Part shown: one piece after another, positions 48,501 to 56,894 of the stretch
How positions within the stretch are numbered: position 1 is the first letter of the stretch
Layout: every line of letters starts with the position of its first letter
Translations under genes and position numbers: made by a program
Notes under the pieces: model-generated
Database searches by the model: none
What the model was told of the DNA's origin: nothing
The model's input: only the letters and a program-made list of their open reading frames with translations
Assembly (NCBI RefSeq): GCF_031312595.1
Contig: NZ_CP133592.1
Location: 620,001-684,000 of the forward strand
Direction: 5' to 3'
Origin: Methanolobus sediminis
GTDB lineage: Archaea; Halobacteriota; Methanosarcinia; Methanosarcinales; Methanosarcinaceae
Length of the DNA: 64,000 nt

Positions 48501-48737
48501 TTGAGAAAATTTAGCCTGCTCGACCATCAGTTGATCCCTAAACATGAAATAATGTTGGAAGATGAACTTAAATCTGTTTTAAAGCAATATGCCATTGAGA
48601 AGGAACAACTACCCAAGATAAAGGTTGTTGATCCCGTTATTCAGGAAATTGGGGCACAGGTTGGAGACGTCGTAAAGATTACACGTATCAGTCAGACCGC
48701 CAGCGAAGCATTCTATTATCGACTTGTCATCGCTTAA
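48501..48737 (+). CDS. rpoH: DNA-directed RNA polymerase subunit H (Rpo5)
   Basis: 78 residues, archaeal homologue of the Rpb5 C-terminal domain. 'FSLLDHQLIPKHEIMLEDELKSVL', 'QLPKIKVVDPVIQEIGAQVGDVVKITR' and 'ASEAFYYRLVIA' are diagnostic. It begins on TTG with the strong ribosome site GGGAGGAG (48484-48491). First protein gene of the RNA polymerase/str cluster. Confidence 0.96.
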   Translation: MRKFSLLDHQLIPKHEIMLEDELKSVLKQYAIEKEQLPKIKVVDPVIQEIGAQVGDVVKITRISQTASEAFYYRLVIA

Positions 48738-48809
48738 CTGCGATATTCACATTATTCAGACAGGGCTTTTTTGCAATAAACACAATAACCACATAAAGAA
48801 GGTGCTATC

Positions 48810-50453
48810 ATAGCGTTAACCAAAGGACAGATCCCACGTTCGTTTTTCACGAAAGATAAGATCGTACAGCATCACATAGATTCCTACAATAAGTTTCTGG
48901 AGACTGGTCTTCAAAAGATCATCGATGAACAGAAGATCATCGAGACCGACCTTGAAGACACATATATCAAACTGGGCAATATCCGCGTTGAGAATCCTGT
49001 TGTCAAGGAAGCGGACGGAGCCATCGAAAACCTCTATCCTAACGAAGCAAGGCTCAGAAACCTTTCCTATTCCGCACCACTCTACCTCCAGATGAGTGTT
49101 GTTGAAAATGATGAAGAGAAAGAACCACAGGAAGCAAAGATCGGACAGCTTCCGGTAATGATCAAATCCGACATATGTAACCTCACTGAGCTTAGCGAGG
49201 AAGAGATGGTCAAATACGGTGAAGACCCACTTGACCCAGGAGGATATTTCATTATCAACGGTACCGAGCGTGTGGTCATGACACTGGAAGACCTCGCTCC
49301 TAACAAGATCCTCACTGAATTCGGAGAAAGATATGGAGACATCATAGAGGTTTCAAAGGTATTCTCACAGAGAAGAGGATACAGGGCACTCGTAGTTGTA
49401 GAAAGAGGAAGAAAATCACTTCTTGAAGTATCATTCCCATCCATTTCAGGCCGTCTTAACTTTATCACACTTATGAGAGCACTCGGCGTGGAGACTGACG
49501 AGGAACTTGTAAAAGCAGTATCCACAGACCCTGAGATCATGAAGTTCATGTTCGAGAACCTTGAAGAGGCAGAGGTCGACAACATTGAAGATGCAATGGA
49601 GAAGATCGGTTCAAGAGTCGCTTCCGGACAGGCAAGGGACTACCAGATCAAACGTGCAAACTACGTGATTGACAGATACCTTTTACCACACCTTGGAAAT
49701 GAGCCACACGACAGGGCAGCAAAGGCAAACTTCCTTGGAAGAATGGCAGAATCATGTTTTGAACTGGCACTTGGCAGGCGTAATCCTGATGACAAGGACC
49801 ACTACTCAAACAAGAGGTTGAAGCTTACCGGTGACCTTATGGAAGACCTGTTCAGGGTTGCATTCAACAGGCTTTCAAGAGACATAAAATACCAGCTTGA
49901 AAGAGCAAACATGAGAAACCGTGAGCTCAATGTGATCACACTTGTAAGGGCAGACGTACTCACAGACAGACTTCAGCACCCACTTGCAACAGGTAACTGG
50001 GTCGGTGGAAGAACTGGTGTATCACAGCTGCTTGACAGGACTGATTATATCTCAACACTTTCCCACCTCAGACGTGTAATTTCCCCGCTTTCAAGGGCAC
50101 AGCCGCACTTCGAGGCTCGTGACCTGCACCCTACACAATGGGGCAGACTTTGTCCGTCAGAAACTCCTGAAGGTCCAAACTGTGGTCTTGTGAAGAACTT
50201 TGCACAAATGGTAGAGCTTTCTACAGGTACCGAGGAAGACAAGAAGATTAAGAACATCCTTTACGACCTTGGCGTTGTGAAGACAGTTCTTAACTCATCC
50301 CTCAAAGCACTTCCTGAGTACGATGAGGAGCTTGACGACTATATGGAAGACATAGAAGTGAGAAACATAGCTGAAGACGAAAAACCAGAACCAATCGGGT
50401 ACACGAACTATTCAGATTCATTAGACGACATGGGAGGACTTCTCGATGAATGA
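48810..50453 (+). CDS. rpoB2: DNA-directed RNA polymerase subunit B'' (Rpo2 N-terminal half)
   Basis: 547 residues if started at the ATA at 48810. The frame is open from an in-frame TAA at 48786 and has no ATG, GTG or TTG before ATG 49092. The 94 residues before 49092 are clearly conserved RpoB'' sequence ('[19 protein letters not shown]', '[18 protein letters not shown]', '[19 protein letters not shown]'), so the gene must start upstream. AAGGTG (48799-48804) lies 5 bases before the ATA, normal Shine-Dalgarno spacing. Later motifs include '[22 protein letters not shown]' and '[26 protein letters not shown]'. It overlaps rpoB' by 8 bases. Confidence 0.9.
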
Positions 50454-52260
50454 AGCTAAAGTTTTCCTCAACGGAGAACTCGTAGGAACCCACTCAGACC
50501 CTGCTGAACTTGTAGAAAATATCAGAGAGCAGCGCAGGTCAGGGCTGATGTCAGAACAGATCAATGTAACTTATTATGAAGACATACATGAAGTTCTGAT
50601 CAACACCGACATGGGTCGTGCAAGGAGACCACTGTTCGTTGTAAAGAACGGAGAAGCACTTGTCAGCGATGAGGAGATCGAACTCCTTGCAGAAGGTAAG
50701 ATGGCATATTCCGAACTTACAAAGGCAGGAAAAATAGAGTACCTTGACTCTGAAGAAGAAGAGAATGCATTTATAGCCCTTTACAAGAACCATATCACTG
50801 ATAAGCACACTCACATGGAGATCAACCCGGGACTTATGCTTGGAATATGTACCGGAATGGTACCATACCCGGAACATAATGCATCCCCACGTAACACAAT
50901 GGGTGCAGCAATGGTCAAGCAGTGTATCGGCGTATCAACATCCAACACCAAGCTCAGACCTGACACCCGTGCACACCTTTTACACTATCCACAGCGTGCA
51001 ATGGTAAGGACTCAGACCTGCGAATCCATTCACTTCGATGACAGACCAGCCGGTCAGAACTTCGTTGTAGCTGTAATGTCCTACGAAGGCCACAACATTG
51101 AAGATGCACTGGTTTTCAACAAGGGTTCAATCGAGAGAGGACTTGGAAGAAGTCACTTCCTCAGGACATTTGAGGGCGAAGAAAGACGTTACCCTGGAGG
51201 ACAGGAAGACAAGTTCGAGATCCCTGACTCCGAATTCAGAGGTGCACGTAGCCCTGAAGCATATGCAAACCTTGACATTGACGGTCTTGTAAACCCCGAG
51301 ACAAGAGTAGGTCCAAACGACGTACTTATCGGAAAAACAAGTCCGCCACGTTTCCTTGAGGAACAGTCCGACTTCGGTATCACCGTTGAGCAGCGCAGAG
51401 AAAGTGCAATCACAATGCGTTCCAACGAGAAAGGAGTCGTTGACACAGTCATTCTTACAGAATCCATTAACGGAACACGTCTTGCAAAGGTCAAGATAAG
51501 AGACCAGAGAATCCCTGAGATCGGTGACAAGTTCGCTTCAAGACACGGTCAGAAAGGAGTTATCGGACTTATCGTACCATTTGCTGACATGCCATTTACA
51601 GAGAAAGGAATGGTACCTGACCTTGTAATCAACCCACACGCAATTCCTTCACGTATGACTGTCGGTCACGTGCTTGAAATGATCGGTGGTAAGGTAGGTT
51701 CCATGGAAGGTAGGAGAGTTAATGCAACTGCATTCTCCGGAGAGAATGAAGACGATCTTCGTGCAGCTCTCAAGACCCATGGATTCGCACACACAGGAAA
51801 GGAAGTCTTCTTTGATGGCGTAACCGGAAAGAAGATCCAGGCAGATGTGTTTGTAGGAGTTATCCTTTACCAGAAACTGCACCACATGGTAGCATCAAAG
51901 ATGCACGCAAGGTCAAGAGGACCTGTACAGGTGCTTACAAGGCAGCCAACTGAAGGTCGTGCCCGTGAAGGAGGTCTGCGTTTCGGAGAAATGGAGCGTG
52001 ATGTGCTTATCGGCCACGGTGCTGCAATGACACTGAAAGAAAGACTGCTCGATGAGTCTGACAAGGTAGTAGAACTTGTCTGCGGACACTGTGGAATGAT
52101 CGCAACCTTTGACAGGAAGAGAAATATCAGGTACTGTGCCAACTGTGGTGCTGAGACTGATATCCACCCTGTAGAGATGAGTTACGCATTCAAACTGCTG
52201 CTAGACGAGATCAAATCCCTTGGTGTAGCCCCAAGACTGCAACTTGAGGACGCCGTATAA
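50446..52260 (+). CDS. rpoB1: DNA-directed RNA polymerase subunit B' (Rpo2 C-terminal half)
   Basis: 604 residues, the catalytic-side half of the split beta-like subunit. '[25 protein letters not shown]', '[26 protein letters not shown]', '[20 protein letters not shown]' and '[13 protein letters not shown]' are core motifs. The C-terminal zinc site is '[23 protein letters not shown]'. The B''/B' split is the normal arrangement in methanogens. The start overlaps rpoB'' by 8 bases. Confidence 0.97.
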
Positions 52261-52273
52261 GGAGAGATTCAAA

Positions 52274-54919
52274 ATGCATAATGATATTCCATCAATTCCA
52301 AAAAGGGTTGGCGCAATTAAATTCGGTCTGCTCTCTCCTAAAGAAGTAAGGAAGATGAGTGTAACAGCAATTATCACCGCTGACACCTACGACGACGACG
52401 GTTATCCAATTGACATGGGTCTTATGGACCTTCGTCTTGGAGTTATCGACCCTGGTCTTAAATGTAAGACCTGTGGCAGCCGTGCAGGAGAATGTCCGGG
52501 ACACTTCGGACACATCGACCTTGTGGCACCGGTCATACACGTAGGTTTTAACAAGACAATACGCAAGACACTGCGTTCAGTATGCCGCAACTGTAGCAGG
52601 CTTCTCCTTGATGCAAGTAAGAAACAGGAGTTCCTTGACCAGTTAAGAACTTGCAAGGACATGGGACACCTTCCAGACGATATCATCAACGAAGTATTCA
52701 AGGAAGCACGCAAGTCAAAGACCTGCCCATACTGTTCAACCGAACAGCTTGAGATCAAGTTCGAAAAACCAAGCGACTATGTAGAAGATGGCCACAAGCT
52801 CACTCCAACCGAGATCCGCGACCGCTTTGAGAACATTCCTGATGAGGATGTAAAAGTTCTTGGCATGGACCCTTCAAGTGCAAGGCCTGAATGGATGATC
52901 CTCACAGTTCTTCCAGTACCACCGGTAACTGTCAGACCTTCAATTACACTTGAATCCGGCCAGCGCAGTGAAGATGACCTGACCCACAAGCTTGTAGATA
53001 TTATTAGAATTAACCAGAGATTCCAGGAGAACAGGGATGCTGGTGCGCCACAGCTTATTATTGAAGACCTGTGGGAATTGCTCCAGTACCATGTTACGAC
53101 ATTCTTCGACAATGAAGTATCAGGCGTACCTCCTGCAAGACACAGATCAGGAAGACCTCTCAAGACCCTCACACAGCGTCTTAAGGGTAAGGAAGGACGT
53201 TTCAGAGGAAGTTTGTCCGGTAAGCGTGTTAACTTCTCAGCACGTACCGTAGTTTCACCTGATCCAAACCTTAGTATCAATGAATTAGGCGTTCCTTTTG
53301 CAATGGCAATGCAGATGACAATTCCTGAGAAGGTCACAACAAGAAACATTGAGCTTCTCCGCATGTACGTACAGCGTGGCAGCGAAGTTCACCCTGGTGC
53401 AAACTATGCAATCCGTGATGATGGAAGGCGTATCAGAGTTTCTGAAATTAACAAGGAAGAACTTGCAGAGAAGATAGAAGTCGGATGGACTGTTGAAAGA
53501 CAGCTCATGGACGGCGACATTGTTCTCTTTAACAGGCAGCCTTCACTTCACAAGATGAGTATCATGGCCCACAGGGTAAAGGTACTTCCATTCAAGACAT
53601 TCAGACTTAACCCGGCAGTATGTGCACCATACAACGCTGACTTTGACGGTGACGAAATGAACATGCACGTTCTGCAGACCGAAGAGTCAAGGGCAGAGGC
53701 CAGCATCCTTATGCAGGTTCAGGAGAACATCCTGTCCCCACGTTTCGGCGGACCAATTATCGGTGGTATACATGACCACATCTCAGGTCTTTTCCTGCTT
53801 ACAAGGAACGAGAATGCCATCACAAAGAATGCAGCTCTTGAACTGCTCAGGAAATCTGACATCAGAGACCTGCCGGAACCTGCAAGTTACTCAGAGAACG
53901 GAGAACCACTGTGGAACGGTAAGCAGATCTTCAGTCAGATCCTTCCTAAAGGACTTTACCTGGAATTCCCTGCACAGGCTTGTTTTAAGTGTGACACCTG
54001 TAAGAAGAGGGACTGTGAATACAATGCATATGTTGTCATAGAAGATGGAGAGATGCTCCAGGGTACTATTGACGAACAGTCCATTGGTGCATTCAAAGGA
54101 AAGATCCTCGATAAGGTAGTAAAGGAATACAGCCCAGAAGCAGGAGCTAAATTCGTAGATGACTTTACCAGACTTGCTATCCGTGGTGTGATGAAAACAG
54201 GTCTTAGTTTCGGTATCAGTGATGAAGACATACCACCTACTGCAAAGATCCAGATAGGAAATCTCCTGAGTGAAGCTGAAGATAAAGTGCAGAAACTCAT
54301 TGAAGCCTACGAGGCAAAGGAACTTGAACCATTGCCAGGACGTACACTCGATGAAACCATTGAAATGAAGATCATGCAGGAACTTGGTAAAGCCAGAGAC
54401 CAGACCGGTAACATTGCCGGTAAGCAACTGGGTCTTGAGAACTCTGCGGTGCTCATGGCAAAGTCAGGAGCAAGAGGTTCAATGCTTAACCTTACCCAGA
54501 TGGCAGCCTGTGTCGGACAACAGGCGGTTCGTGGTGAAAGGATCAGAAGAGGTTATGCAGGAAGGACACTCCCACACTTTGACAAGGGTGACCTTGGTGC
54601 AGATGCCCACGGGTTCGTAAAGGCAAGTTATAAGAGCGGGCTGAACCCGACCGAATACTTCTTCCACGCAATTGGTGGTCGTGAAGGTCTTGTAGATACT
54701 GCGGTTCGTACTTCTCAGTCAGGTTACCTGCAGAGGAGACTTGTTAACGCATTGCAGGATCTTGAAGTCCAGTATGACGGTTCTGTAAGAGAAACACGTG
54801 GTGTCATTGTCCAGTTCAAATACGGAGAAGATGGAATTGACTCCACAAAGAGTGACTATAGTAAACCTGAAGCGATCCATCGTATCGTCAGGAGAGTCAC
54901 CGGTAAGGAGGTGAACTAA
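52274..54919 (+). CDS. rpoA1: DNA-directed RNA polymerase subunit A' (Rpo1 N-terminal)
   Basis: 881 residues from ATG 52274, preceded by AAGGAGAG; an in-frame TTG at 52244 lies within rpoB' and is not used. The N-terminal zinc region 'CKTCGSRAGECPGHFGHIDLV' and the absolutely conserved catalytic 'NADFDGDEMNMHV' (three Mg-binding Asp) are present, with the bridge-helix region 'FFHAIGGREGLVDTAVRTSQSGYLQRRLV'. No intein. Ends directly against rpoA''. Confidence 0.98.
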   Translation: MHNDIPSIPKRVGAIKFGLLSPKEVRKMSVTAIITADTYDDDGYPIDMGLMDLRLGVIDPGLKCKTCGSRAGECPGHFGHIDLVAPVIHVGFNKTIRKTLRSVCRNCSRLLLDASKKQEFLDQLRTCKDMGHLPDDIINEVFKEARKSKTCPYCSTEQLEIKFEKPSDYVEDGHKLTPTEIRDRFENIPDEDVKVLGMDPSSARPEWMILTVLPVPPVTVRPSITLESGQRSEDDLTHKLVDIIRINQRFQENRDAGAPQLIIEDLWELLQYHVTTFFDNEVSGVPPARHRSGRPLKTLTQRLKGKEGRFRGSLSGKRVNFSARTVVSPDPNLSINELGVPFAMAMQMTIPEKVTTRNIELLRMYVQRGSEVHPGANYAIRDDGRRIRVSEINKEELAEKIEVGWTVERQLMDGDIVLFNRQPSLHKMSIMAHRVKVLPFKTFRLNPAVCAPYNADFDGDEMNMHVLQTEESRAEASILMQVQENILSPRFGGPIIGGIHDHISGLFLLTRNENAITKNAALELLRKSDIRDLPEPASYSENGEPLWNGKQIFSQILPKGLYLEFPAQACFKCDTCKKRDCEYNAYVVIEDGEMLQGTIDEQSIGAFKGKILDKVVKEYSPEAGAKFVDDFTRLAIRGVMKTGLSFGISDEDIPPTAKIQIGNLLSEAEDKVQKLIEAYEAKELEPLPGRTLDETIEMKIMQELGKARDQTGNIAGKQLGLENSAVLMAKSGARGSMLNLTQMAACVGQQAVRGERIRRGYAGRTLPHFDKGDLGADAHGFVKASYKSGLNPTEYFFHAIGGREGLVDTAVRTSQSGYLQRRLVNALQDLEVQYDGSVRETRGVIVQFKYGEDGIDSTKSDYSKPEAIHRIVRRVTGKEVN

Positions 54920-56468: not shown

Positions 56469-56894
56469 TTGGGCGAGATCAAGTTATCCACTGAAGGTAT
56501 CCGATACATCGCATTATTTGAAAAATTAACCGGCGCGGCGGTCAAAGATTGTATAATCGATGACGGTAGGATAATATATGTGATAAAGGCAGGCGACATG
56601 GGCGCTGCCATCGGAAGGAAGGGAGAACACATCAACCGTATGAAAAATACAGTGGATAAACAGATCGATCTTGTCGAATATTCGGACGAACCCGGTGTAT
56701 TCATAAAAAATGCATTCAGTCCGGTAACTGTCAAATCAGTGAACATCACAAGCAGGAACAATAAGCGATTAGCTTATGTAGAAGTATCTAATAAGGACAA
56801 GGGTCTTGCCATAGGACGCAATGGGAAAAACATTGAAAAGGTCAAACTTGTCGCAAAGAGACATCACGATATAGATGATGTAATACTGCAGTGA
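56469..56894 (+). CDS. nusA: NusA-like transcription factor (two KH domains)
   Basis: 141 residues. Archaeal NusA keeps only the KH pair: '[24 protein letters not shown]' (KH1, GRKG loop) and '[30 protein letters not shown]' (KH2, GRNG loop). The start is set at TTG 56469, 9 bases after AAAGGAG (56453-56459); TTG 56460 is too close to that site. RNA-binding factor for transcription elongation or termination. Confidence 0.92.

Follow-up and report, generated by a model that had tools for sequence, protein, structure and literature searches.

The 5' end of rpoB'' in Methanolobus sediminis

Where does translation of rpoB'', the gene for RNA polymerase subunit B'', begin in Methanolobus sediminis, if no ordinary start codon lies near the expected N-terminus? 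In the window (the whole stretch of 64,000 nucleotides analysed here; all features given below are on its + strand), the coding sequence is placed at 48810..50453. The genome is 2.8 Mb in two contigs, and the predicted protein is about 98% identical to that of M. vulcani. It matches the NCBIfam profile NF007175 over nearly the whole model (model length 496), scoring 861.9 bits against a curated cutoff of 355, with profile positions 6-492 corresponding to residues 6-492 when numbering begins at the GCG at 48813; alignments to solved archaeal RNA polymerases begin at query residue 6-9. Direct reading of the sequence gives an in-frame TAA at 48786..48788, after which the frame continues CCA CAT AAA GAA GGT GCT ATC ATA GCG TTA ACC AAA GGA CAG. 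According to the ORF listing, the earliest ATG, GTG or TTG in this frame is the ATG at 49092..49094, which alignment places inside the gene: since archaeal RNA polymerases align upstream of it, a start there would cost 93 residues (counted from GCG 48813), most of which are conserved.

An earlier note on this DNA had claimed that the conserved N-terminus is encoded 5' of ATG 49092 and that no ATG, GTG or TTG intervenes between the TAA and that codon; the profile and polymerase alignments confirm the one, and direct reading together with the ORF listing the other. Its candidate start, an ATA at 48810..48812, does lie where the protein is expected to begin, and the AAGGTG at 48799-48804 ends 5 nt 5' of it, as the note had stated. 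Because the host genome contains the 16S 3' end GGATCACCTCCT, the AGGTG upstream of rpoB'' can be taken as a legitimate Shine-Dalgarno core. Initiation at AUA is the best reading of the locus, and one that comparison with related loci supports.

The codon across the family, and other possible starts

The earlier note had proposed comparing this codon among relatives. Of 105 distinct Methanosarcinaceae loci, 104 carry AUH (AUA, AUC or AUU) at the aligned position: ATC in 60, ATA in 33 and ATT in 11, with a single CCA and no ATG, GTG or TTG. These loci span Methanosarcina (including one genome with a main contig of 5,751,492 bases), Methanococcoides, Methanohalophilus, Methanohalobium, Methanosalsum, Methanimicrococcus, Methanofrustulum, ANME-3 and others; two loci of other families that an identity criterion had binned with these (L037 and L187) were excluded from the tally. 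All Methanolobus genomes examined have AAAGA[A/G]GGTGCTATC-ATA-GC[G/T]-TTA. GGTG and AUH are separated by five nucleotides in most family loci, and by six in some Methanimicrococcus. Most family loci have no ATG, GTG or TTG able to give the conserved N-terminus, the exceptions being the GTG-bearing lineages described below. Four other families of the order contributed 25 loci, each with a canonical start (ATG 14, GTG 9, TTG 2); in 24 of them it stands in the GCG column, one codon 3' of the AUH column, and in the remaining one, L187, an ATG stands five codons 5' of the AUH column. In family f2 every distinct locus read has GTG. In 17 genomes nine other genes of the cluster served as controls: rpoH, rpoB', rpoA', rpoA'', rpl30e, nusA, rps12, rps7 and EF-2 have, wherever they were found, a canonical start no more than a few codons from the expected N-terminus, while for rpoB'' 13 of the 17 genomes offer no such start at a distance of up to four codons.

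Substitutions were counted on an RpoB'' tree built with the first ten codons omitted (85 rows, lineages of different layout excluded). The three positions of the AUH codon change 0, 0 and 4 times, those of the codon before it 0, 5 and 3 times, and those of the codon after it 5, 4 and 12 times; the leader from -60 to -28 changes about 20 times per position. With the other rows counted as well, the third base of AUH gives 5-7 changes, the figure varying with tree and rows. With AU fixed, the third base variable and the neighboring codons drifting, AUH is the best candidate for the start. The excess of third-position changes sets in at this codon and persists 3' of it, the pattern that a coding sequence beginning here would give. 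Comparison of the loci thus shows that no near-cognate codon other than AUH is conserved at the N-terminus of RpoB''. Taken together, these patterns argue that AUH (AUA in the window) is the start of rpoB'' in Methanosarcinaceae, to which we assign a probability of roughly 0.88. Nearly all family loci encode Ala or Thr next, either of which is a good second residue for removal of the initiating methionine.

Other starting points have been considered. Translation could begin one codon after AUH, at the GCG or ACG that aligns with the sister-family start: ATG, GTG or TTG occupies this column in the other families, and Methanohalobium has GTG there. Within the family, though, the column holds GCG, GCT, GCA, ACG, ACA, ACT, GTA, GTT and others, most of them not near-cognate to AUG, and with 5, 4 and 12 changes it behaves unlike a conserved start, making this reading very improbable. 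Slimmer still are the chances of a start at the GTG within GGTG, with the frame reached by frameshifting. GGTGC is unchanged on the tree and the GTG is in frame in L109, L119, L121 and L163-L165, but in the window its frame runs GTG CTA TCA TAG, with a stop that other loci do not conserve; there is no evident slippery site, and this GTG is itself part of the Shine-Dalgarno core. Could the codon instead be a sequencing error, be mended by RNA editing, or be irrelevant because translation begins internally at ATG 49092? Nothing except the oddity of the codon speaks for any of these, the least credible of the readings weighed here. The earlier note had allowed for a miscalled ATG, an alternative now ruled out by more than 100 related sequences that lack ATG at this place and cannot all share a single-genome mistake. 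A-to-I editing would mend AUA alone, but AUC and AUU also occur; C-to-U editing at the next codon would mend only ACG or GCG, but GCT, GCA and ACA are found there too; and the internal start would delete the 93 residues that align with all archaeal RNA polymerases.

A replacement or additional in-frame GTG is found in three lineages (Methanomethylovorans, one ANME-3 MAG and Methanohalobium), and an ATG in none. Methanomethylovorans keeps the AUC, followed in L071, L151 and L174 by an in-frame TAA no more than two codons later, and all its members have a conserved GTG seven codons after the AUC with its own GAGGG upstream. Part of the conservation of AUC may therefore serve something else, since it is kept in a genus where it sometimes cannot be the start and the downstream GTG must take that role. 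In the ANME-3 MAG (L109/L183), a 2-nt deletion, which may be a real change or an assembly error, removes AUH and shifts the upstream GTG, part of GGGGTG, into the reading frame. In Methanohalobium a GTG comes immediately after the ATA, and in some Methanimicrococcus and Methanofrustulum an in-frame GTG lies 2-3 codons 5' of ATT. From these cases it appears that GTG, and never ATG, stands in where AUH is lost or shadowed. Elsewhere in the gene, the draft genome of Methanolobus UBA474 (L030, G010) has rpoB'' broken by a TGA or frame break near residue 450, probably an assembly error.

The upstream block and the neighboring genes

The codon is preceded in the window by an initiation block, AAAGAAGGTGCTATC (48795..48809), which includes the Shine-Dalgarno core AAGGTG and the conserved spacer CTATC. 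On one tree of 83 loci, parsimony gives 22 changes in the 15 nt before the rpoB'' start, compared with 91 for rpoH and 119 for rpoB', so that the block, AAAGARGGUGCUANC in its family-wide form, changes 4-5 times less than its equivalent at either gene. No change at all was counted at GGTGC (-9 to -5), at A(-3) or at the AU of AUH. The comparison shows strong constraint on the block, and because spacers are normally free to vary, it is more than a Shine-Dalgarno sequence. Searches gave one perfect match per genome in six genomes and one single-mismatch match in Methanohalobium; the pattern was not found in Methanosalsum, at up to two mismatches, or in Methanimicrococcus. A shared use of the block at other genes was considered and rejected: all matches outside rpoB'' carry one or two mismatches, and they number about 60 versus about 40 for a reversed control pattern. 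Pairing with other parts of the rRNA was unconvincing, with runs of just 9-11 nt including G-U pairs, and a palindrome about the ATA, GCTAT-C-ATAGC, is perfect in Methanolobus only and lost elsewhere.

Upstream, rpoH (48501..48737; NF007129) has a conserved TTG or GTG start (TTG 82, GTG 14, ATG 0 among 96 family loci), and nusA has a conserved TTG (56469..56471, three codons past the first TTG of its ORF) in 16 of the 16 genomes where the gene was found. These counts bear out the earlier remark on the recurrence of weak starts in the operon: with rpoB'' included, three transcription genes of the cluster stably keep them. The start of rpoA', by alignment with relatives, is the ATG at 52274 rather than the TTG at 52244 of the ORF list.

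The rpoH-rpoB'' leader (48738..48794 in the window, with a T6 tract at 48767-48772) is about 70-500 nt long in the family and contains a T-rich tract in most species; it could be a terminator or an attenuator. Leaders of Methanosarcina (L090 and others) contain a GCGG...CCGC repeat together with a conserved motif, GAATTCCATGCACCATCGTACGG, whose GCACC complements the invariant GGTGC in the rpoB'' ribosome-binding site. A search for a covarying leader structure in Methanosarcina gave a double change in only 1 of 23 pairs and an unfavorable covariation term, and a structure masking the ribosome-binding site was rejected, since the predicted folds differ between species and lack covariation. At the other end of the gene, the ATG of rpoB' overlaps the rpoB'' stop by 8 nt (50446..50453), suggesting possible translational coupling. 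The two genes overlap in most genera and are separated by a 14-nt gap in Methanosarcina; the coupling may be partial, as some rpoB' genes have their own ATG and ribosome-binding site.

A possible translational control of RNA polymerase

How might such a start work, and what might it do? The ordinary initiator Met-tRNA (CAU) would initiate rpoB'' at AUH with the third position mispaired, positioned by the AAGGUG core in its fixed context, AAAGARGGUGCUANC-AUH. The tRNA genes found were an identical pair of initiator-like CAU genes, a further CAU gene and an Ile-GAU gene; a dedicated initiator tRNA for AUH was considered and rejected, as the tRNAs found were all ordinary, with two tRNA matches not called by ARAGORN. 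With a weak codon kept by selection, initiation would limit RpoB'' synthesis and respond to how stringently start codons are chosen (aIF1/aIF1A/aIF2); it would set how much RpoB'' is made and, by way of the cistron overlap present in most genera, how much RpoB'. From the conservation pattern we infer that initiation takes place at AUH, that methionine is used, that the codon is weak and that its role is regulatory. That AUH keeps RpoB'' synthesis low, as the earlier note had suggested, is plausible. We also consider it rather likely that the weak start restricts or regulates the synthesis of RpoB'' (and of RpoB', whose cistron overlaps) in a manner like that of infC or sigR, probably with codon discrimination by aIF1 as the route: this factor destabilizes erroneous initiation complexes and has been described as filling the fidelity role of bacterial IF3 (PMC7531240). 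In M. mazei, Ribo-seq analysis names rpoB/A among genes with lower ribosome footprints under nitrogen limitation (PMC11456600); this is only consistent with regulation, because the drop may reflect mRNA level, on which the text is silent.

It is also possible, though on balance doubtful, that AUH is the start without being regulatory: its extended context would be efficient enough for translation, and the non-AUG codon would be a frozen accident of the family ancestor. The third base has changed just 4-7 times in total, depending on the tree and the rows used, always among A, C and T, so that G could have been missed by chance; neutral simulations with an equal number of changes (about 5, over 104 loci) lack G in 14-36% of runs, and the absence of G, taken alone, is not significant evidence of selection against AUG. 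The most conserved feature, moreover, is the upstream block and not the third base. Against an accident, AUG is one change away and yet occurs at 0 of the 104 loci, and where replacement or extra starts have arisen they are GTG, not ATG. The predicted pairing of rpoB'' with the 16S tail is also modest for an efficient context, at -7.9 kcal/mol versus -10.0 for rpoH, -10.8 for rpoB' and -16.7 for rpoA''.

The regulatory reading has precedents among bacteria. E. coli infC, encoding IF3, has an AUU start (as cited in PMC9845219), with autoregulation by IF3. Like infC, rpoB'' has an AUH start on an essential gene-expression gene, retained although AUG is one mutation away; unlike IF3, its product is an archaeal RNA polymerase subunit and not the discriminating factor; no direct feedback loop is apparent, and the third base of the start is free (A, C or U) in a fixed context. 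The GTC start of Streptomyces sigR is repressed by IF3 (PMC5472188), and here the likeness extends to a non-canonical start on a transcription factor gene with an overlapping downstream cistron, conserved within a lineage and canonical outside it. The sigR start, however, has a very extensive ribosome-binding site and experimental proof, whereas rpoB'' has modest Shine-Dalgarno pairing and is known from sequence comparison; rpoB'' also differs in encoding a core RNA polymerase subunit and in ranging over a whole archaeal family. Closer by, rpoH and nusA, which lie in the same cluster and also encode parts of the transcription machinery, resemble rpoB'' in their conserved weak starts, but their UUG and GUG are standard archaeal starts and AUH is not: a review of archaeal translation counts AUG, GUG and UUG as start codons, with AUH not among them (PMC7531240). 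Searches of the open-access literature for archaeal AUA, AUC or AUU starts and for Methanosarcina rpoB starts turned up no report of this one.

More speculatively, AAAGARGGUGCUANC-AUH may be a dedicated element and the first known archaeal case of start-codon-dependent control, with RNA polymerase output tuned at translation either by codon discrimination of the aIF1 type or by a factor recognizing the conserved spacer, and with RpoB'' as the entry point for RpoB'. If an AUH start is indeed used throughout the family, it would connect the initiation of translation with the machinery of transcription and offer, in the genetically tractable Methanosarcina, a natural archaeal gene on which the discrimination of start codons by aIF1 could be tested. 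It would also mean that gene callers restricted to ATG, GTG and TTG misplace the rpoB'' start in Methanosarcinaceae. The conserved AUH start and its upstream block suggest that a hidden translational control may act on the transcription machinery of these methane-making archaea.
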